The position numbers and the translations under genes were made by a program. 64,000 nucleotides of DNA, from assembly GCF_032393985.1 (NCBI RefSeq), contig NZ_CP135918.1, forward strand, positions 6,821,724 through 6,885,723, in the 5' to 3' direction. This DNA is from Fischerella sp. JS2. GTDB taxonomy: Bacteria; Cyanobacteriota; Cyanobacteriia; Cyanobacteriales; Nostocaceae. This document shows, piece after piece, positions 4,722 to 55,684 of the stretch. A model generated the notes under the pieces. The model was given only the letters and a program-made list of their open reading frames with translations, was not told the DNA's origin and did not search any database. The number at the start of each line of letters is the position of its first letter. Within the stretch, counting starts at the first letter, position 1.

Positions 4722-6887
4722 TTAATAGGCTGAGTTTTGCTTATGATCGTTGCTAACGACACCTAAAACGTTCATGCGGGACGTTTTCAAACTATCTAAT
4801 GCTCGCTTTAGTACTGAAGAGTCTGTTTTTTCCATCCTCACTACTAACAAAATGCCATCTGTATGAGGTGCCAATAAACTAGCATCAGCTAGTCCAAGTA
4901 AAGGCGGAGCATCATAAATTACTAAGTCATAGCTATTTTCAAAGTCTTCCATCAATCGTTTCATCTTTTCTGATGAGAGCAACTTTGTTGGATCAGGCGG
5001 TATTGGCCCAGAAGTCAGTACAGAAAGTTGCTTCATAAACGGTGCTGGTCGAATTGCTTCTGTCACTGGTAAGTTGGTAGTAATTAAATTACTCAACCCC
5101 CAGAAGTTACTTAAATTGGCTAGCTCGTGAATCACGGGTTGGCGTAAATTAGCATCTACAAGTAAAACTCGCTGTTCCATTGCACAGGCGATCTCGGCCA
5201 AGTGGAATGCAACTGTAGATTTGCCATCTCCTGCAACAGCTGAAGTAATAACTATAGATCTAATTGGGCGATCGCTACTAAGTAGTTGAATATTTGTATG
5301 CAGTACGCGTAAAGCTTCTAAGAACTCTGTGCTGTAGCTACTAGTATCTTGAGGAGCGATCGCACTAGGTTCAGAGATATCTTTTGGTAAGGAATCTGGT
5401 ATTGCCTTTGCCAAAATTCTTGGTAAAGAAGTATGCTGTTGATTGATTTGTAGATGTTTCTCAAAAGGTATAGATCCTAGCAAAGGCTCTTTAATCTTTT
5501 GCTTGAGAACATAAGCACTATGATAAGTACTGTCCAATTTCTCTAGTAGTAAAGCCAGACCAATTCCTAAGACCAAACCACCCAACAATCCCGATATTAA
5601 ACTACGTTTGATGTTTACTGACGCAGGATTTTCTGGCTGAGTAGGCGCTTGAATTAATTGCCAAGGCAACTCAGCTTGTGCTACCTGAATTTCTAGAGTT
5701 TCACGGGTGTTGAGAAAACGATTCAAACTTTCAGTTGCAACCTGTAAGTTCCGTTGTAATTCAGTATATTGTCTTGTTAAAACAGGTAATTGCTTGCGCT
5801 TTTGTTCGAGTTGTTGCTCTACCTTAGCAAGTTCTTGACTCTGCACCTCTAAAGCCTGAAGTTGTGTTGTCGCCTCAGCCAGTTTTGTATCCATAAAGCG
5901 CTGTGCTTCTTGAGTCAACAATGGTAACAGGCTTTCCCGTTTTTGTTTTAAATTTTGGACAGTAGGGTTTTCCTCTTGTAAAAGAGTTGACTGAGTAGCT
6001 ATTTGGACATCTAATTCCCGCAACTTATTAAGTAATTCTTGATACAATTGTGCATCATTTAGTGCAGCCTGGGTTCCCTCTTTCCCTTGCAAGCTGGCTA
6101 AATTGTTGCGAGCTACAGCTAACTGCTGATCAATCTCTTGTCTTTTTTGAGATAAACTCTCAGCTTGAGCAGTTATTTGCTGCGCCTGTGTTTCTGGATC
6201 AACAAAATCGTACTTTTGACGAAATACCTGCTGTTCTTTTTGCAGTTGATCAACCCGCCTCTGCATCACTTGCAGTTGTTCTCTGACAAACTTTAGACCT
6301 TGGCGCAAACTAGTTTGTCGCTGTTCTAAGCTATATTTTAAGTAAGTCTTAGCAATTTGGTCTAGTATAGTTTTTACCTTAGTGGGATCATCACTCTGAT
6401 AGCGAACTTCTATAATCTTGGTTTCACCGAGACGAGTAATAGTCAGAGAATTTACTAAATAATTATAGTTAACGTCTGGATAATCTCTTTGTAATCTTCT
6501 GATAATATTTGTCATCAGTTCTGGACTCTTGAGAACCTGTATTTGGCTCTCATAATCTAAACTCGGGTTGGATGGACTAGAACCTTTGCTGGAATCAAGT
6601 TCTGGCAACTTTTTCTCATTATTGAGAGGTTCGACTAATATCCGAAAACTGCCTTCATACACTAGTTTTTGCTTTAGGGATGAGTATACTGTAGCTACCA
6701 TCACAACAGCTGCTACTGTGGCTATCACTAGTGCCCGTCGCCTGACAATACTTAAAAAATCTCGTAAATTCCAATCATCCCCTTGAGTTTCAGATAAAGG
6801 AAAAGGCGGAAAATGATTACTAAATTGCTGCGGCAAGAAGTTCTGATTTCGGTCAGAACTTGAAGATTGATATGATTGATTATCCAT
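4722..6887 (-). CDS. Wzz/BY-kinase polysaccharide co-polymerase (Wzc-like)
   Basis: 721 residues. An N-terminal Wzz domain with a first membrane helix near 50-70, a long periplasmic coiled coil (about 190-400) and a second helix near 430-450 are followed by a cytoplasmic BY-kinase domain. The kinase has Walker A AVAGDGKST near 550-558, Walker A' LLVDANLR near 575 and Walker B LVIYDAPP near 656. Proteins of this kind set chain length and gate export of capsule or exopolysaccharide through a cycle of tyrosine autophosphorylation. The C-terminal tail has only one tyrosine (the final residue, in NSAY) instead of the usual cluster. It is transcribed away from the rest of the island across a 1.9-kb gap. 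The matching outer membrane channel is not in the window. Confidence 0.93.
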   Translation of the reverse strand: MDNQSYQSSSSDRNQNFLPQQFSNHFPPFPLSETQGDDWNLRDFLSIVRRRALVIATVAAVVMVATVYSSLKQKLVYEGSFRILVEPLNNEKKLPELDSSKGSSPSNPSLDYESQIQVLKSPELMTNIIRRLQRDYPDVNYNYLVNSLTITRLGETKIIEVRYQSDDPTKVKTILDQIAKTYLKYSLEQRQTSLRQGLKFVREQLQVMQRRVDQLQKEQQVFRQKYDFVDPETQAQQITAQAESLSQKRQEIDQQLAVARNNLASLQGKEGTQAALNDAQLYQELLNKLRELDVQIATQSTLLQEENPTVQNLKQKRESLLPLLTQEAQRFMDTKLAEATTQLQALEVQSQELAKVEQQLEQKRKQLPVLTRQYTELQRNLQVATESLNRFLNTRETLEIQVAQAELPWQLIQAPTQPENPASVNIKRSLISGLLGGLVLGIGLALLLEKLDSTYHSAYVLKQKIKEPLLGSIPFEKHLQINQQHTSLPRILAKAIPDSLPKDISEPSAIAPQDTSSYSTEFLEALRVLHTNIQLLSSDRPIRSIVITSAVAGDGKSTVAFHLAEIACAMEQRVLLVDANLRQPVIHELANLSNFWGLSNLITTNLPVTEAIRPAPFMKQLSVLTSGPIPPDPTKLLSSEKMKRLMEDFENSYDLVIYDAPPLLGLADASLLAPHTDGILLVVRMEKTDSSVLKRALDSLKTSRMNVLGVVSNDHKQNSAY

Positions 6888-45037: not shown

Positions 45038-45763
45038 ATGTACCAAATAGATCCTCCTCTTTCTCCCAAAGAAGTTCTACCAACCATGTATGATCTCAAG
45101 AGTGAAGATCCAGAGGAGCCTGGTTTGCCTGACGAATTTCATATATATCAACCCCAACTTTTACGGGAAACCTTTCGTCCGCCAACTTATTCTCCAGATG
45201 AAGTTTTTGTCGCCAGCGATTTAAATCTTTACTACGACTCTCGTCATCCTCTATGGTACAAGCGGCCTGATTGGTATGCAGTGGTTGGTGTCTCCAAGTT
45301 ATACGAAGGGAAAGACCTACGTTTAAGTTACGTGGTTTGGCAAGAAGGAGTCAACCCGTTTGTTGTGGTAGAATTACTTTCCCCTGGTACAGAAAAAGAA
45401 GATTTAGGGCAAAATCTTAGGGTAGTAGATCAGCCGCCAACAAAATGGCAGGTTTATGAACAAATACTGCGTGTTCCCTATTACATAGTTTTTGATCGCT
45501 ATACAAATACACTGCGAGCATTTATTCTCCAAGCAGACCGCTACACAGAAGTAAATTTGGCAGAACCACGTCTGTGGATGCCAACATTAGAATTAGGCTT
45601 GGGACTTTGGCAGGGTACTTACCAAGGTATCGATCGCTTGTGGTTGCGTTGGTATGATGTCAACGGTAACTGGATTCCAACCCCGGCAGAACAAGAACGC
45701 CAAAAAGCAGAACGCTTAGCAGCAAAACTGCGAGAATTGGGCGTTAACACTGATCAATTGTAG
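45038..45763 (+). CDS. Uma2-family endonuclease-fold protein (DUF820)
   Basis: 241 residues. PDEVFVASDLNLYYDSRHPLWYKRPDW-type motifs and FVVVELLSPGTEKEDLG contain the acidic PD-(D/E)xK-like residues of the Uma2 family, which is heavily expanded in cyanobacteria. The C-terminal tail is a charged coiled coil (EQERQKAERLAAKLREL), common in this family. Biological function is unresolved. No neighbour indicates a partner. Confidence 0.9.
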   Translation: MYQIDPPLSPKEVLPTMYDLKSEDPEEPGLPDEFHIYQPQLLRETFRPPTYSPDEVFVASDLNLYYDSRHPLWYKRPDWYAVVGVSKLYEGKDLRLSYVVWQEGVNPFVVVELLSPGTEKEDLGQNLRVVDQPPTKWQVYEQILRVPYYIVFDRYTNTLRAFILQADRYTEVNLAEPRLWMPTLELGLGLWQGTYQGIDRLWLRWYDVNGNWIPTPAEQERQKAERLAAKLRELGVNTDQL

Positions 45764-49128: not shown

Positions 49129-49986
49129 CTATGTCAAAGTTCTTCGTAAACGTTGTTCCAATGAAACTAAATCTACTCCCAGATTTTGCAATACCTTAAT
49201 TGCTGCTCCTCCCCCTTCACGGAGAATTCCTAATAGCAAATGTTCTGTACCAATGTAATTTACACCAAGTTGTCGAGATTCTTCTACTGATAGTTCTAAT
49301 ACTCGCTTAGCTCTGGGGGTGAAGGGAACATCTACAGCTGTGTTTCCTAAACCTCTACCAATGATTTTTTCAACCTCAATTTGAGCATTTTCTAAGTTCA
49401 CACCTACGGAGGTAAGAAACTGAGATGCAATACCACTACCTTCACCAATTAATCCCAGTAAAATCTGTTCTGTTCCCACAAAATTATGTCCTAAGCGGCG
49501 AGATTCACCTTGAGCAATATTTATGGCTATAACTGCTTTTTGAGTAAATCTTTCAAAACCTTTGAGATGGAATCTACCTGATACAAATCCAGAGAGTTTT
49601 TCAAATATAGATTCAAAAAATTTTTCCAACATAAACTCTTCCTGCATTGATGTATTATTGACTGCATGAGAAGTGCGATCGCTACAAAGAAATTCACTTC
49701 TTGTTCTTCCTGTTGATAAAAAAGTTAATAAATCCTCCATAGTCTCAGCATTTGCTGAGTACCACAGAAATTGTTTCTCTTTACGACTATTAACTAAACC
49801 TTCAATCCGCAGTTTCTCCAAGTGATGCGATAGGGTCGAGTTGGGAATTTTGAGTTTCTCCTGAATCTCCCCTACAGTCATCCCGTTTGGATAAGCCGCA
49901 AACAGCAACCGCATTATTTCCAGCCGTGGTTCCGACCCTAATGCAGAAAAGATATCTGCATACCGAGCCGTTTCTTCGTTAGCCAT
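49129..49986 (-). CDS. ArsR-type winged helix fused to a ClpC N-terminal domain
   Basis: 285 residues in one continuous frame. Residues about 8-95 form an ArsR-family winged helix ([15 protein letters not shown], then [31 protein letters not shown]). About 40 residues of linker follow, then residues about 142-285 are a complete Clp repeat domain pair ([39 protein letters not shown], then [15 protein letters not shown]), closely resembling the ClpC N-terminus. No AAA+ ATPase follows. The HTH lacks the usual metal-binding cysteines. An inverted repeat overlapping a -10 element lies just upstream (50003-50031). Function unproven; a regulator that senses or is targeted by the Clp system is the natural reading. 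Confidence 0.88.
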
Positions 49987-50002
49987 ATTTCTAGAATAAT
50001 CG

Positions 50003-50031
50003 AAATATTATAGATGTCAACACTAATATTT
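50003..50031 (-). promoter_or_regulatory. Candidate operator/promoter of the ArsR-ClpN gene
   Basis: AAATATTA (50003-50010) and TAATATTT (50024-50031) form a perfect 8-bp inverted repeat with a 13-base spacer, 17 bases upstream of the ATG of the minus-strand gene. On the minus strand the repeat overlaps a consensus -10 TATAAT (50012 to 50007). TTGACA within the spacer is oriented for a second possible promoter. Such an operator is what autoregulation by an ArsR-type repressor would need. Confidence 0.6.
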
Positions 50032-50133: not shown

Positions 50134-50388
50134 TAGAAAAATCACACGTTTGTGATTGTTGGTTATCCCTTCGTAAATCCCTCAGGACTAGATCACTCAA
50201 CTCAAGCGGTCACGGTAGCTATCGCTTCATTCACTTCTTTGGAAGTCAAACCGGAATAGCGATAGCTACCGTAAGACCGCACAGTCAAGAGTGGGCTAGT
50301 GATGCGTGGTTAGGCTGAACGCATGGACGGCGATCGCACCGTCCGAGTTGCAAGGTTAGATACCAAGGACAAACGTGTGATTTATCTA
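50134..50388. mobile_element. MITE-like element with terminal and internal inverted repeats
   Basis: The first 20 bases (50134-50153, TAGAAAAATCACACGTTTGT) match the reverse complement of the last 20 (50369-50388) at 19 of 20 positions. Inside, GCGGTCACGGTAGCTATCGCT (50206-50226) pairs with the arm at 50258-50280 except for a two-base bulge. There is no coding capacity. The right end covers the stop codon of the SWIM gene (50382-50384). No clear target duplication was found. A transposase-dependent miniature element or a composite terminator could both explain it. Confidence 0.55.
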
Positions 50389-52022
50389 CACTGACGAGCG
50401 TGTTGCATTCGTAGTGCCAGAATATGCTCACAAGGACCTTTATACAGCTTATTTTGCTGATGCCAATTGCAAGTACATTCTGCACAGATTATACGCTCGT
50501 CTGGATCAATCGTCAAAGTTGGATTGTAAATTTTTTCTTTGTCTTGAACATTACCTTCTAAGACGAGTATCCCCTCTCGGTCACTCACCTGTGTCACCTG
50601 CACAACATTTTGACTCAAAAATCTTGTGGCGCTTTCTTCCCGTTCATTAGCAAAGCGTAACCTTTCCATTGGTAAGGGTTCGCGACTGAGTTCCCTAACG
50701 CGATAGACTTTTTTGTTTAAGTCATATATCACACGTCCTGCCTGCGTATAAGCATTTAAAGCACCAAGCACAGCTGTACGACTCAAATGTAAACGCTGGG
50801 CCAGACTATCTGCTGTTTCTACCCAGTTTTCCCGCAGTCCATCGAAAATGATTTTCTGTGTCCACTCATCGACATCAGCACGAGGCGCCATTAAATCAAA
50901 GTTACCACTACCCGACCAGTCATTGGCAGTCCATCCCGATAAACCAAGGGTAAAAGACATATCACCCAAATCAGCGACGTAGAATGAAGGCATACCCGTA
51001 CCCAATAAGTGAACAGTAAATTTTGTGGCAATGGGAATCAGACGTTCGAGGATGTGGAGGCGACGACGTCCCCAGGTACGGATGGTTTGAGCTTGAGAAC
51101 CAGTATAAAGCGATCGCGGACAAACTACTTCAATATCCCACGGTTCAAATACCACACGCACAGGTTCACCAGGTTGAAGATGATAGCACAGACTGCGCGG
51201 TCCTTTCTTCTCTTTATGGCGACGTAGAACCAAACATATATTATGAATATCCATCGGGTGTAAATCAAACTGTGTCGCTGGTAAACACATCGCGGAACTG
51301 ACTTGTAAAAAACCCCTTACCCAGCTATCTGGTAAATCAATTTTGACTTCTTTATAAGCTGCTTCGTTAGTTGTTTGGACTTCAAAACCCGAAGGATCAA
51401 CTTGCAATTGAGTAGTTTTATAACTGCGGATTTTTTGAAATTCATCATAAAGTGCTGCGGAGTAATCAACATTTGTTGTTCCACAAGCAAATTCACTAAT
51501 GTTTCTAAATACTTCGTAACTAGCACCAAGACGTCCATAAGTTGATTCATCTACACTGAAGCATTCAAAAAAGACTTCATCGGGATGAACTGTAATTACT
51601 GGGTCAAAAACAAAATAAAAATCTAGTTGCTTTTGCCAAACAAACTGACGAAACTTTTCTCTAGCTTGATAATAAGGACGCCATCTTTCGTAACTACGCT
51701 GATTTAGCGCAGTCATTTCTGTTTGTAACTGTTTGATTTTGTCAGCGACATCTTGTCGCATAGCTGCAACTAAATCCCAGTCAATTTCATCTTGTTTAGC
51801 ACGCCATTCTTTATAAGCGGTTTTGTCTTTGGGTTTGTATCGTAAATCAGAAACTACAACATCATGCAAAGCACTAATAGCTTCACGAAAGGCAATATTT
51901 TGTTGTAGTTCACCAATGAAGTAAGTAGGCGGACGCTTGGTGTCTGGGGAAAAAGACATCTGGGTGTTACCGCCATTTTCTACTACTGCTGTGTTTCCTT
52001 TATATGAGTAGTTAAATTCCAT
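50382..52022 (-). CDS. SWIM zinc-finger protein
   Basis: 546 residues. The C-terminal SWIM motif CxCxnCxH is CTCNWHQQNKLYKGPCEH near 515-532, which binds zinc and usually nucleic acid or protein. The preceding ~500 residues have no recognised enzymatic motif and resemble a family of large SWIM proteins found next to WGR-domain and MoxR/VWA genes in many bacteria. It is co-directional with the HicB, HicA and WGR/HEAT genes upstream. The stop codon lies inside the MITE-like element. Confidence 0.85.
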   Translation of the reverse strand: MEFNYSYKGNTAVVENGGNTQMSFSPDTKRPPTYFIGELQQNIAFREAISALHDVVVSDLRYKPKDKTAYKEWRAKQDEIDWDLVAAMRQDVADKIKQLQTEMTALNQRSYERWRPYYQAREKFRQFVWQKQLDFYFVFDPVITVHPDEVFFECFSVDESTYGRLGASYEVFRNISEFACGTTNVDYSAALYDEFQKIRSYKTTQLQVDPSGFEVQTTNEAAYKEVKIDLPDSWVRGFLQVSSAMCLPATQFDLHPMDIHNICLVLRRHKEKKGPRSLCYHLQPGEPVRVVFEPWDIEVVCPRSLYTGSQAQTIRTWGRRRLHILERLIPIATKFTVHLLGTGMPSFYVADLGDMSFTLGLSGWTANDWSGSGNFDLMAPRADVDEWTQKIIFDGLRENWVETADSLAQRLHLSRTAVLGALNAYTQAGRVIYDLNKKVYRVRELSREPLPMERLRFANEREESATRFLSQNVVQVTQVSDREGILVLEGNVQDKEKIYNPTLTIDPDERIICAECTCNWHQQNKLYKGPCEHILALRMQHARQCR

Positions 52023-52060
52023 ATCTTTTATTATTAATGATTGACTATTTATTTTTGTAA

Positions 52061-52279
52061 CTAGCCCACTTGATAAATGATTGGACGATATTTAGGTTGG
52101 GGAATAGGTTTATCCTCAGTGCTAGCTGTCTCCAACCAAGCAGCTTTTGCAACCATTACTTCACGTAATGCTTCTTCTGGCGTTTCACCCCAAGCAGAAC
52201 AAAATTTCAAGTCTGGAATATCAGCAATATAACCTTCATCTTCTTCGCTGTAGAAAATATTGATGTGATAGTCTTTCAT
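52061..52279 (-). CDS. hicB: HicB-type antitoxin
   Basis: 72 residues with the HicB partial RNase-H-like fold: YHINIFYSEEDEGYIADIPDLKFCSAWGETPEEAL. The C-terminus lacks a DNA-binding ribbon. Its ATG overlaps the TGA of the upstream toxin remnant (ATGA), the usual hicA-hicB overlap. As the toxin is frameshifted, this antitoxin is possibly an orphan. Confidence 0.85.
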   Translation of the reverse strand: MKDYHINIFYSEEDEGYIADIPDLKFCSAWGETPEEALREVMVAKAAWLETASTEDKPIPQPKYRPIIYQVG

Positions 52280-52528
52280 GCTTCATCCTCCAAACTAAGA
52301 TTATACTGCTCGACTATTGATAGGAATTGACGGACTGGATACGGTACTGCTTTTCCATTCCTATTTTGAATGTTAATAATTTCTGGGACTTCTGGATGAT
52401 TATATATGATGACTACCGTTGATTCGTGACAGACTAAACCCAAAGGCTTCAATCAGTGTCACTAGTTCCGTAAACTGGATATTCTTTGAGCCTGATAAAA
52501 CTTTTTCCAACAGCTTACGCTTTTTCAT
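52276..52528 (-). pseudogene. hicA: HicA toxin gene broken by a 2-bp frameshift
   Basis: Reading from the ATG at 52528 gives a good HicA N-terminus (MKKRKLLEKVLSGSKN, then EAFGFSLSRINGSHHI with the conserved catalytic histidine pair) and stops at TAA immediately after. Another frame from the next bases continues with NHPEVPEIINIQ, GKAVPYPVRQFLSIVEQ and ends at the TGA overlapping hicB. The two halves join perfectly if two bases (one AT step of the TATATAT run near 52410-52416) are added: 253 instead of 255 bases. A sequencing error is possible but the break lies in a microsatellite, so slippage is likely. Confidence 0.72.
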
Positions 52529-52543
52529 TAAGTTATATCAAAA

Positions 52544-55500
52544 TTATTTCCTTATTTTTGATACTGTTTTTACCTGAATTGGCAAAGATATTTCTGGATA
52601 AATTTTGTGAATTTTCAACATAATTTGCATTGCTGCTGCCTTATCTCCTATTGCCATTGTTGCCGATTGCCGAGCCATAATTTCTGCTACTATTTTGGCA
52701 GCGGCTTCGCTTTTTTGGGCTTCAGCTTCTAAAAAGGCAAATATTCGCTTCTTAGCTATGCTACCGCGATTGACTCGACACAAGACACTAATAAAAAAGG
52801 GCATTAATTCTTGCAATCTTTCAGGATTGTTGGCAGCATACTTTTCCAGATAGTTGGTAGCGAATAACTGCATATCTGCCGATGGATGTTCGCTAAATTT
52901 CAAGAGATATTCTTCACCATTTTCTGTTTGAAAGTTACGGGTTAATAAATCACGCCCAAGTCTACGCGCTTCTTCTCGCACGCTATCACAAATACTTACC
53001 AAAACTTGAGGTGTAAATTCGTTGCTGCTGAATTCTGTTGTAAATATCTTGAAGGCGAAATCTCGGGAATCTTGCCATTTCGCTTCTAGTATCCGCACTG
53101 CTGCTAACATTTCTTGGGAATCTACACGCAGACGATTTAAGATTTGTAAAAACATCTGTTGTGCTGCTTCCCGTACTGATAAAATCTCGTGGTTGGCAAG
53201 TTTGGCGATTTCAGAAGTCGAAAATTCTGCCAACCAATTTTGGTAATTTGCACTTAGTATAAAACCACCCAATTCTTGGGCTGCTGAAGATTGGGCTTGA
53301 AGTAATTTTAAAGCTGTGTCTTTGCTGATGTTTGACATCCATCCCTGCAAATCTTCTCTTAGCAGACGCACTAAATAACTGTGAACGCTTTCATGTTGTT
53401 CTGGTATGAGCAGAATTTCGATCAAATCAGATGCAATTTGCATTGCAAAAGCAGGATAGGCACTGGCTAAACGACGGATGATTGGTTGGATAGCGTTGCG
53501 GATTTCTGCATTTGCATTCACCGCCATCGCCACTATTAAAGTTCTTTCTTCACCTATGAGTTTCTTGTCTGGCAATTGTCCAAATAATCTAATACCGAGA
53601 ACTCGCAATGATTCGTAAGGTGATGCTAAAAGTGATTCTATGATTTCTGGCGGTAAGTTTTCGACTCTAGTTTCATGATTGAGTAGAATACGAGCAGCTA
53701 GTTCTTGAATTTCCAAGATTGGATGTGCTAGAAGATCATTAATTACATTCAAGCCTAAGTTCCGCAATTGGGGTGCAAAGCTTACTAGTAAGGTTTCGCA
53801 AATATCTTTGACTAACTCAGTTGCAGATTCTGGTGTAAATGCTAATAACTCAGCAATAATGCAGCCGATGATGGTTTTGGATGTGCGATCGCTTAAAATT
53901 GATGATGCCAACAGTCTACGCGCAAAAGCACGAGTATCGCTTTGTTGACTAATAACTAGCGTTGTGATGAAGTTACTATCTTCTAAAAAGAACTCGCGTT
54001 GTTGTTCGATCCATTGGTAAGCTTGAGTACGAGCCTGTTCAGACAGACAATTAACTAAAGCCAGAATTAATTCTTTGTTGGGTGAAGCACAATTGTAGTT
54101 CAGTTGTGCAAGTTCAAAACCAAACTGCGCTGTCACTTCGTAAGGTTTATTAACCAGCCCAATGATGGTATCTATATTAATAGAACTCACAAAGCGATCG
54201 CACACTCTCAAAGCTTTAACGGCAAAATGATCAACAGGGCGACATTTACTTTGCAAGAGTAACTGTAACAGTGCTTGGGGGTGTTGTTCCCAAAGTTGAG
54301 GAAATGCTTCTTCTCTTGTAGTTGGTTCTGCATCCCCTGGTTTATAATTTTCCCGACAGCGCCAGGCTTTGGAATTAGGTTTTAATTCGTAACGGGGACT
54401 ATTTTCGTAGAGAATATGGTTAAAGGTTAAATAACCAGCGTAGGCATCCCACCATTTATGGTTGTATTCTATCTTTGTCCAGCTTGCGTTTAAGTATTCC
54501 CAGCGATGAGAAGCCGATTGCCAAACTCTTTGGGCATCCTGGTCTGAATACTGGAGTAAAATGTCTACAGCCATGTTTACATACTGAGAGTCTCCCTCCT
54601 CACCCAATTGTTTGAGAGTCCGCCACACCCGCCGTCGCAAATATTCACGAGTTTTATCGCTGTAGGCACGATTAGAGTCAGGGCTGTTGAGATAATCTTG
54701 TCTTTTAATATAGCTTCTGGTGGCAGAGTCCCATTTATACATTTGCCACCATTGGCGACGAAACATATGTCGTTCTTTTTCTAAGCGATAAGCAAAGATA
54801 CCAAATACTTCACTATCATGGCGGTATTCTGCCATTTTGAAGATGTGACGCAGACGTTGGAAGTAGTTTGGTTTCAAAGGTGCTTTGCGTAAGATTTCAA
54901 TTAAAGCTGGACGCACGTACTGGTTATCGATTTGATATATTCTGTCAAGTACTGCAAAACCTTTATAGTCACTGCGTTGGAGATAGGCGCGGAGTTCGGT
55001 GGCAAATGCTGCTGCTGAACCATTTTGTGCTAGCTTTTGCAATTCTGGCGGGAGAAAATCTATCATCTGTGTCTGCAAAGCCGCTTTGGTTTGTGCATCT
55101 GCAAGCTTGAGGAGTGCTTCAAAAGCGATGCGACTGACAAATTCTGGACTGGAAGCACTTTGATAAAGTGTGATGAGTGCGGGAATCGCATTTTGATCGC
55201 CACAGTAACCCAAGGTCCAGGCAATGCAATAATCTCTCATGGGTGCGCCTGTACCAATCAGTTTTAGTAGCAAAGGCGCAGCTTCACTAATTTTCAGTTC
55301 TCCTGCCCGCCATATTACCCGCTCTAACTTCCATTTGCGGGGTTGGTTGTTTACAAGATGGTTGAGAATTACTTGTTTTTTAGCATCTTTACTGGGAGGA
55401 GGCGTTGTCTCAACTGAGGTAGCACTACTTGGGGTGGCGGAGACTTCACGATATCCCTTTTTCGTCTTTTCCCCTACCAGCTTGTCAAATTCTCGCTGTG

Positions 55501-55684
55501 CTGTTTCTAAAGGTACAGCCTGAGTGGTTTTTGTACCTTCTTTCAGGTTATTGCCACGGCGTCCGTAGCGAAAGTTGACTAAATATCGCCCTGCATCTAT
55601 TTGGCACAGATCCACTTCGTAAATTTTATCGGATGTCCCTTCTTGATAGTGTAGGGTTGTACGTTTGATTAGTTTCATACCCAT
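52544..55684 (-). CDS. WGR-domain protein with HEAT repeats
   Basis: 1046 residues. The N-terminus (about 5-80) has the WGR-like pattern KLIKRTTLHYQEGTSDKIYEV and YLVNFRYGRRGNNLKEGTKT. From about 110 to 1000 there are many helical repeats of about 35 residues that read as HEAT/ARM-type (LLKLIGTGAPMRDYCIAWTLG, ELAARILLNHETRV, VREAAQQMFLQIL). WGR domains are usually nucleic-acid-binding modules of DNA-repair-related proteins. It lies 15 bases upstream of the broken hicA and in the same direction, with the SWIM gene beyond. A scaffolding role on DNA is a reasonable guess only. Confidence 0.85.
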   Translation of the reverse strand: MGMKLIKRTTLHYQEGTSDKIYEVDLCQIDAGRYLVNFRYGRRGNNLKEGTKTTQAVPLETAQREFDKLVGEKTKKGYREVSATPSSATSVETTPPPSKDAKKQVILNHLVNNQPRKWKLERVIWRAGELKISEAAPLLLKLIGTGAPMRDYCIAWTLGYCGDQNAIPALITLYQSASSPEFVSRIAFEALLKLADAQTKAALQTQMIDFLPPELQKLAQNGSAAAFATELRAYLQRSDYKGFAVLDRIYQIDNQYVRPALIEILRKAPLKPNYFQRLRHIFKMAEYRHDSEVFGIFAYRLEKERHMFRRQWWQMYKWDSATRSYIKRQDYLNSPDSNRAYSDKTREYLRRRVWRTLKQLGEEGDSQYVNMAVDILLQYSDQDAQRVWQSASHRWEYLNASWTKIEYNHKWWDAYAGYLTFNHILYENSPRYELKPNSKAWRCRENYKPGDAEPTTREEAFPQLWEQHPQALLQLLLQSKCRPVDHFAVKALRVCDRFVSSINIDTIIGLVNKPYEVTAQFGFELAQLNYNCASPNKELILALVNCLSEQARTQAYQWIEQQREFFLEDSNFITTLVISQQSDTRAFARRLLASSILSDRTSKTIIGCIIAELLAFTPESATELVKDICETLLVSFAPQLRNLGLNVINDLLAHPILEIQELAARILLNHETRVENLPPEIIESLLASPYESLRVLGIRLFGQLPDKKLIGEERTLIVAMAVNANAEIRNAIQPIIRRLASAYPAFAMQIASDLIEILLIPEQHESVHSYLVRLLREDLQGWMSNISKDTALKLLQAQSSAAQELGGFILSANYQNWLAEFSTSEIAKLANHEILSVREAAQQMFLQILNRLRVDSQEMLAAVRILEAKWQDSRDFAFKIFTTEFSSNEFTPQVLVSICDSVREEARRLGRDLLTRNFQTENGEEYLLKFSEHPSADMQLFATNYLEKYAANNPERLQELMPFFISVLCRVNRGSIAKKRIFAFLEAEAQKSEAAAKIVAEIMARQSATMAIGDKAAAMQIMLKIHKIYPEISLPIQVKTVSKIRK

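Follow-up and report, generated by a model that had tools for sequence, protein, structure and literature searches.

What does a protein that joins an ArsR-type DNA-binding domain to the N-terminal domain of ClpC respond to, and which genes would it control? The question is raised by a gene of Fischerella sp. JS2 that lies in the window studied here, by which we mean the whole stretch of 64,000 nucleotides that was analysed. The reading that we favour, and hold to be reasonably probable, is an autoregulated sensor of ClpC ligands that is also a sponge repressor, with a logic like that of mycobacterial ClpC2.

A winged helix and a ClpC N-domain in one frame

The fusion gene occupies 49129..49986 on the minus strand, as a single uninterrupted open reading frame that encodes 285 aa plus the stop, and the call is supported by Pfam, NCBIfam, conservation of the frame and dN/dS. 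Its first part, residues 1-92 (49711..49986, minus strand), is the ArsR-type winged helix of the ArsR/SmtB family, with Pfam matches at residues 17-67 to HTH_20 (2.6e-11) and HTH_5/ArsR (5e-11; 42.7 bits against a cut-off of 22) and an NCBIfam match to HTH_metalloreg (6.9e-20; 70.6 against a cut-off of 55). The two modelled strands 65-70 and 73-78 are taken as the wing, and the modelled helix 49-61 (49804..49842, minus strand) would be, by analogy with the family, the recognition helix. In the alignment of 32 fusions, which includes the window protein and excludes L093, 10 of the 12 positions from 49 to 60 are invariant, N49 and L52 being almost so. The linker that follows, residues 93-143 (49558..49710, minus strand), sits where unfused ArsRs have an 'ECC' motif; it contains low-confidence helices at 96-101 and 115-134.

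The C-terminal part, residues 144-285 (49132..49557, minus strand), is a complete ClpC N-domain. Pfam finds Clp_N (2.3e-30) in two stretches of the C-terminal half, and residues 144-280, starting at the first FERFT, align end to end with the N-domain of Arabidopsis ClpC1 (PDB 5gui; 8.3e-57) and are 70% identical to the ClpC of the same genome. In agreement, 5gui is the best Foldseek match of the structure model (TMt 0.91), which was built from 32 sequences with a mean pLDDT of 76.9 and comprises the winged helix, the linker and a Clp_N fold with its two repeats. The prediction covered the monomer without DNA, and because pLDDT stays below 50 for residues 94-143, the model does not fix the arrangement of the two halves. 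The frame terminates after Clp_N: no AAA family is among the Pfam matches of the protein, its Clp models match the N-domain region only, and the AAA+ modules of a ClpC ATPase are absent. Thus, the earlier note was right in describing one frame with an ArsR domain and both Clp_N repeats but without AAA+. Besides the fusion, the 7.02-Mb genome encodes four longer Clp_N proteins (open frames of 851, 854, 891 and 929 aa). The double Clp_N fold is shared with the N-domain of ClpC and with plant ClpT1 and ClpT2; unlike these, the fusion is joined to a DNA-binding domain and has no ATPase. ClpT belongs to the plastid protease as one of its subunits, and is not known to bind DNA.

The architecture was seen mainly in cyanobacteria. 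Full-length matches to the fusion occur in 10 of 60 genomes searched, its own genome counted, and a broken copy in G018. An HTH profile found matches in 32 of 192 genomes of the family, and in 31 of these both domains share one frame (G110 carries a full fusion), the match in G174 being split over two frames. A phylum sample of 386 genomes gave at least 6 HTH matches, 5 being fusions, a count that may be low since up to 13 candidates were scored per genome. From a scan of a genome collection we kept the best 80 of 256 relatives: 31 are one-frame fusions, L093 has the domains in separate frames (it was counted for operator and tree, and excluded from one-frame counts), and 48, mostly from Acidobacteria, are ArsR only. 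Fusions among these best 80 of 256 come from Fischerella, Tolypothrix, Scytonema, Calothrix, Nostoc, Chlorogloeopsis, Stenomitos, Gloeocapsopsis and other genera, the closest named relative being a Fischerella (L075, 94% identity). Chlorogloeopsis fritschii PCC 6912 (L080) and Calothrix NIES-3974 (L094) are among the carriers. The sole fusion in this set labelled as non-cyanobacterial (L107) lies on a contig of a Gracilibacteria MAG, which is perhaps misbinned. Plasmid spread was considered and rejected: 2614 plasmid records match, and 0 reach 80% query coverage.

By the Nei-Gojobori method, pairing with three close relatives gives a dN/dS of 0.04-0.09 in the HTH, 0.06-0.10 in ClpN and 0.18-0.46 in the linker. 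With four relatives at greater distance, where computable and with some sites saturated, the values are 0.07, 0.06-0.21 and 0.16-0.53, respectively. Both domains are under purifying selection. The earlier note had allowed that the frame might match neither family or might hold two genes; the Pfam matches, the 31 of 32 one-frame family members and this selection speak for a genuine fusion. The gene is dispensable, given its patchy spread in the family (32/192) and the fact that three relatives (G018, G174 and L093) have the domains in separate frames. Among the papers listed by a literature search, none describes an ArsR-ClpN fusion; a single one mentions ClpN, in connection with vWA systems (PMC7159879).

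A conserved palindrome at the start codon

Which DNA would the winged helix bind? The earlier note pointed to a perfect 8-bp inverted repeat over a TATAAT. The repeat, AAATATTA-N13-TAATATTT, is indeed there at 50003..50031 (minus strand), with perfect arms that cover TATAAT. With up to 2 mismatches allowed, the chance expectation is 0.19 such repeats, and 18 of 100 shuffles contained one or more. Its role as operator was rejected: among the best 80 of 256 collection loci it is intact in 1 of 32 relatives, so it is probably not the operator.

A better candidate operator is TATTTCGATTATTCTAGAAATA at 49986..50007 (minus strand), a conserved palindrome of the form TATTTC-N10-GAAATA that spans the probable -10 and the start codon, its last A being the A of ATG. 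Upstream of the 32 collection relatives (best 80 of 256, L093 included) it is perfect in 19, has a single mismatch in 10 and has 4 mismatches in 3; the arms are fully paired in 30/32, and the last A coincides with that of ATG in 28/32. The promoter is likely TTGACA (probable -35, 50015..50020, minus strand), 16 nt and TATTCT (probable -10, 49993..49998, minus strand, inside the candidate operator and with conserved spacing), and not TATAAT. In these 32 relatives TTGACA, 7 nt upstream of the palindrome, matches at 6/6 positions in 21 and at 5/6 or better in 25. Only 6 nt separate the end of TATTCT from ATG, so the predicted transcript would have no leader or almost none. Conservation of the element as coding sequence (YFDYSRN) was rejected: in L018 and L098 a stop codon separates the element from ATG, L107 has it at a shifted position and L097, L102 and L103 have two copies of it, which places the conservation at the level of DNA.

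The element also follows the gene across genomes. Sites with 0-1 mismatch were found in 32 of the 192 family genomes, all before the fusion gene, and 31 of them lie within 60 nt upstream of an HTH match, the remaining one preceding the broken gene of G018. By genome, 31 have gene and site, in one (G073) the site before the gene has 3 mismatches, one has the site only (G018, whose broken gene fell below the HTH cut-off) and 159 have neither (Fisher 1.8e-33). Two frame-split genes, L203 of G018 (about 5113-5867) and L205 of G174, keep their operators at 1 and 0 mismatches, respectively. No 2-mismatch sites were listed across the 192 genomes; of those with 3 mismatches, one is the site of the G073 gene itself, others are extra copies that adjoin the gene in G023 and G110, and the rest look like background. 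A very diverged further fusion (L074) is without the operator, and L147, whose CC position is unreadable (X), has an operator-like palindrome upstream with 5 mismatches. Since sites with 0-1 mismatch are linked to the gene and otherwise absent, the pattern points to a private operator, that is, to the autoregulation that the earlier note had suggested, as far as sequence conservation can indicate it.

The further suggestion that the fusion could bring transcription under control of the proteolysis system was weakened as far as a wider regulon is concerned. A search of the 7.02-Mb genome with TATTTCGATTATTCTAGAAATA at up to 3 mismatches returned no second copy beyond its own site, the palindrome by itself shows no enrichment (it was found in 3 places, and in 2 in a backward control), and the family genomes add no 0-1-mismatch site away from the gene. 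A wider regulon has therefore no support in the own genome, the 192 family genomes or the palindrome control, and it is possible that targets have diverged by more than 3 mismatches. Among 33 loci the commonest neighbours are pyrB upstream (15, named by eye), a pentapeptide-like cluster (11) and converging tldE and tldD (11 and 10). pyrB and tldE/tldD were set aside as operon partners and attributed to shared synteny, several contigs being short, and read-through from the same-strand upstream pyrB is possible. The window also contains, at 50382-55684 on the minus strand, consecutive genes for a SWIM zinc-finger protein, a HicB-like protein and a WGR and HEAT-repeat protein (1046 aa), and at 45038-45763 on the plus strand a putative Uma2-family nuclease upstream of the TldD/TldE pair.

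Another idea of the earlier note is that the fusion is delivered to the protease. In this reading the ClpN half would hand the repressor to ClpCP, and protease activity would end repression. The fusion of a repressor with a protease domain by itself suggests such a fate, regulatory proteolysis by ClpC is established, and CtsR in Bacillus is removed by proteolysis. Nevertheless, the N-domain is a receptor and not a known degron, and neither the own genome nor the 192 family genomes show a regulon to release. We regard delivery to the protease as possible in principle but improbable.

Descent from an arsenical repressor

If the fusion acts at its own promoter, what signal would it read? The 'ECC' cysteines that follow the HTH are present in 48 of 48 unfused relatives scored (best 80 of 256), whereas 'CC' is found in 0 of the 32 fusions. 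Some Cys occurs in that stretch in 13 of the 32, the fullest Cys column of the fusion alignment reaches 9/32, and the only conserved HTH histidines, H54/H55, lie in the recognition helix. The metal or metalloid ligand site of the ArsR/SmtB family is thus missing, in agreement with the earlier note, which saw no metal-binding cysteines in the HTH. The family also includes members without a metal site.

The DNA site appears to be older than the fusion. A matrix built from the fusion sites has, upstream of 47 of 48 unfused arsR genes, a match that is equalled by 0 of 200 mononucleotide shuffles (best 80 of 256; L125 is the exception, and L147, for which a first, weak HTH stretch had been taken, was left out of this scoring and of the tree). 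Scores at the unfused genes range between 34.6 and 2.0 bits. The match suggests that the unfused relatives share the operator class of the fusions. Around 49 unfused loci we found a methyltransferase of one cluster in 43, an LMW-phosphatase-type protein in 31 and an SBF-type carrier in 13; Pfam, run on one example of each, gave Methyltransf_31, LMWPc and SBF, and we read them as arsM, arsC and acr3. A cyanobacterial unfused gene (L073) adjoins an ArsP_1 permease (Pfam). The nearest unfused relatives therefore look like arsenic-operon ArsRs; no arsenic genes were recognised among the recurrent neighbours at the 33 fusion loci.

Among the matches listed, the winged helix is 58-68% identical to that of unfused relatives, and the fusions are nested in this radiation with the same class of operator; they differ in lacking the vicinal cysteines and in carrying ClpN. 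In an HTH tree of 81 rows and 89 columns, in which columns are few, the bootstrap had not settled and L073 and L074 form long branches, the 32 fusions fall on one side of a branch (98/98), adjacent to arsRs of Blastocatellia. The tree supports one clade. Together with the shared operator class and the loss of CC, it argues for a single origin from an arsenical repressor whose metalloid site was apparently lost and whose DNA site and operator were retained when a ClpC N-domain was added.

A rival reading is that the protein still senses metal or arsenic, and that ClpN passively serves dimer formation or stability. The HTH matches a metalloregulator model (HTH_metalloreg), its operator class is common to arsenic-operon-like ArsRs, and the cysteines of those 13 fusions fall in the relevant stretch; against it stand the absent CC, the lack of a well-populated Cys column, the position of the two histidines and the strong purifying selection on ClpN. 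We consider a retained metal sensor very improbable.

The ClpC N-domain as candidate sensor

With the metalloid site gone, the ClpC N-domain is the best candidate for the sensor, and the earlier note's proposal to this effect is supported by the absence of CC in all 32 fusions. In 20 genomes (the own one and 19 best-match relatives) 1 of 135 positions of the N-domain of ClpC itself varies, and the fusions retain on average 63% of its residues. The cyclomarin contacts of the ClpC N-domain described in parts of PMC5347014 and PMC10030653 are F2, F80, K85 and E89; among the 32 fusions F2 is kept in 17 (26 with Y), F80 in 28, K85 in 31 and E89 in 26. Retention of seven residues named in the literature exceeds that of random positions (p = 0.023). 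For the five residues of the groove taken separately it does not (p = 0.11), and groove residue 14 varies freely among fusions. Such retention of contact residues is compatible with ligand binding, and is not proof of it.

Two glutamates of GTE motifs that align with the pArg-pocket glutamates of Bacillus and Staphylococcus ClpC (described in part of PMC12583610) are kept in 32/32 and 32/32 fusions; they may be structural. Their invariance can also be taken in favour of a sensor of proteolysis load, in which ClpN binds a free adaptor (e.g. ClpS) or an idle substrate and thereby signals the workload of ClpCP. This would be the same circuit with another ligand, and the protein may hold clients rather than absorb a poison. 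ClpC N-domains dock adaptors and substrates, according to passages of PMC12583610 and PMC5347014, and ClpC2 has been proposed to answer unfolded proteins and is mildly heat-induced, as stated in portions of PMC10030653 and PMC12913811. No sequence feature of the fusions singles out an adaptor, and their patchy distribution is easier to reconcile with a threat that varies than with an adaptor present everywhere, so that we see a load sensor as rather unlikely.

For the circuit that we prefer, a sensor of ClpC ligands that doubles as a sponge, the precedent is mycobacterial ClpC2, a parallel absent from the earlier note, in which, as set out in part of PMC10030653, ClpN stands behind a dimer domain, the protein represses its own promoter, cyclomarin releases it and the protein sponges cyclomarin. 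Similarities, drawn from parts of PMC10030653 and PMC12913811, are an ATPase-less ClpC N-domain placed C-terminally behind a small domain, a palindromic operator over the own promoter at the start codon (here a conserved sequence element), a probably leaderless transcript, F80- and E89-type contacts mostly kept in the fusions, and a proposed role as ligand sensor and sponge. The differences are a winged helix of ArsR type versus a four-helix bundle (the N-terminus of ClpC2 was compared by description only), TATTTC-N10-GAAATA versus CGTCAAC-n5-GTTGACG as operator, and cyanobacteria versus actinobacteria. According to PMC10030653, the N-terminal four helices of ClpC2 form the dimer domain, and it is the ClpN part that is held to touch DNA. 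Since the DNA-binding half is of another kind, the likeness of the circuits is taken as convergence and not as membership.

In the proposed circuit, the winged helix, presumably a dimer as in its family, would bind TATTTC-N10-GAAATA, which overlaps the -10 and start codon of its gene, and the bound fusion would keep its own transcription low. Its ClpC N-domain would bind the ligands of ClpC's own N-domain, whether adaptors, exposed hydrophobic peptides or peptide toxins directed at ClpC. Ligand binding would weaken DNA binding and derepress the gene, and the extra fusion protein would titrate ligand off ClpC, protecting it, until free repressor builds up again. We base this reading on the co-occurrence of gene and operator, the conservation of the element as DNA, the operator class shared with unfused ArsRs, the loss of ECC, the absence of a visible regulon, the kept contact residues and the precedent of ClpC2. 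The more specific version, a sensor swap by which a former arsenite repressor with a ClpC N-domain became a decoy for cyanobacterial ClpC against peptide toxins or overload, is plausible, and we would stop just short of calling it probable.

Cyanobacterial XRE-ClpN proteins are counted as further support for the sensor and sponge reading. We classed by eye 16 further Clp_N regions of non-ATPase length, with Pfam run on L186, L187, L188, L189 and L197: 5 are short XRE-ClpN, 4 are XRE-ClpN-Uma2, 1 is caspase-ClpN and 6 are ClpN alone or with other tails (L201 is perhaps a cut ClpC). Like the fusion, XRE-ClpN proteins place a DNA-binding domain before a ClpC-type N-domain, and the short form has tandem upstream palindromes; unlike it, they have an XRE helix-turn-helix, another palindrome, GTCAAG-n5-CTTGAC, and in some cases a Uma2 nuclease-like C-terminus. 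All five short forms (L196 in G052, L197 in G012, L198 in G007, L199 in G006 and L200 in G054) have two such palindromes upstream, with 0-2 mismatches and about 35 bp apart. The motif resembles the clpC2 operator CGTCAAC-n5-GTTGACG given in part of PMC10030653. The Uma2 forms (L186, L188, L190 and L191, about 380-430 aa; Pfam-confirmed for L186 and L188) have n5 palindromes in 0/4 and an n4 version with 1-2 mismatches in 3. Two other arrangements were seen: in G027 a caspase domain (Peptidase_C14) is joined to a ClpC-type N-domain in a 557-aa protein (L189:1967-3637, minus strand), and at L193:1550-2005 a ClpN 71-74% identical to that of the fusion is accompanied by neither an HTH match nor an operator within the 3.5 kb analysed.

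Taken together with XRE-ClpN and ClpC2, the fusion would make the ClpC N-domain a sensor module that unrelated DNA-binding domains have recruited repeatedly. If this is true, sensing of ClpC binders arose more than once, in unrelated bacteria and with unrelated DNA-binding domains, and the fusion would be a clear case of a repressor that switches its signal while its DNA site stays. It would also supply a ready-made transcriptional readout for compounds that bind the ClpC N-domain, which in mycobacteria is a target of antibiotics. Furthermore, the fusion could help to find ligands of the highly conserved ClpC N-domain of cyanobacteria.
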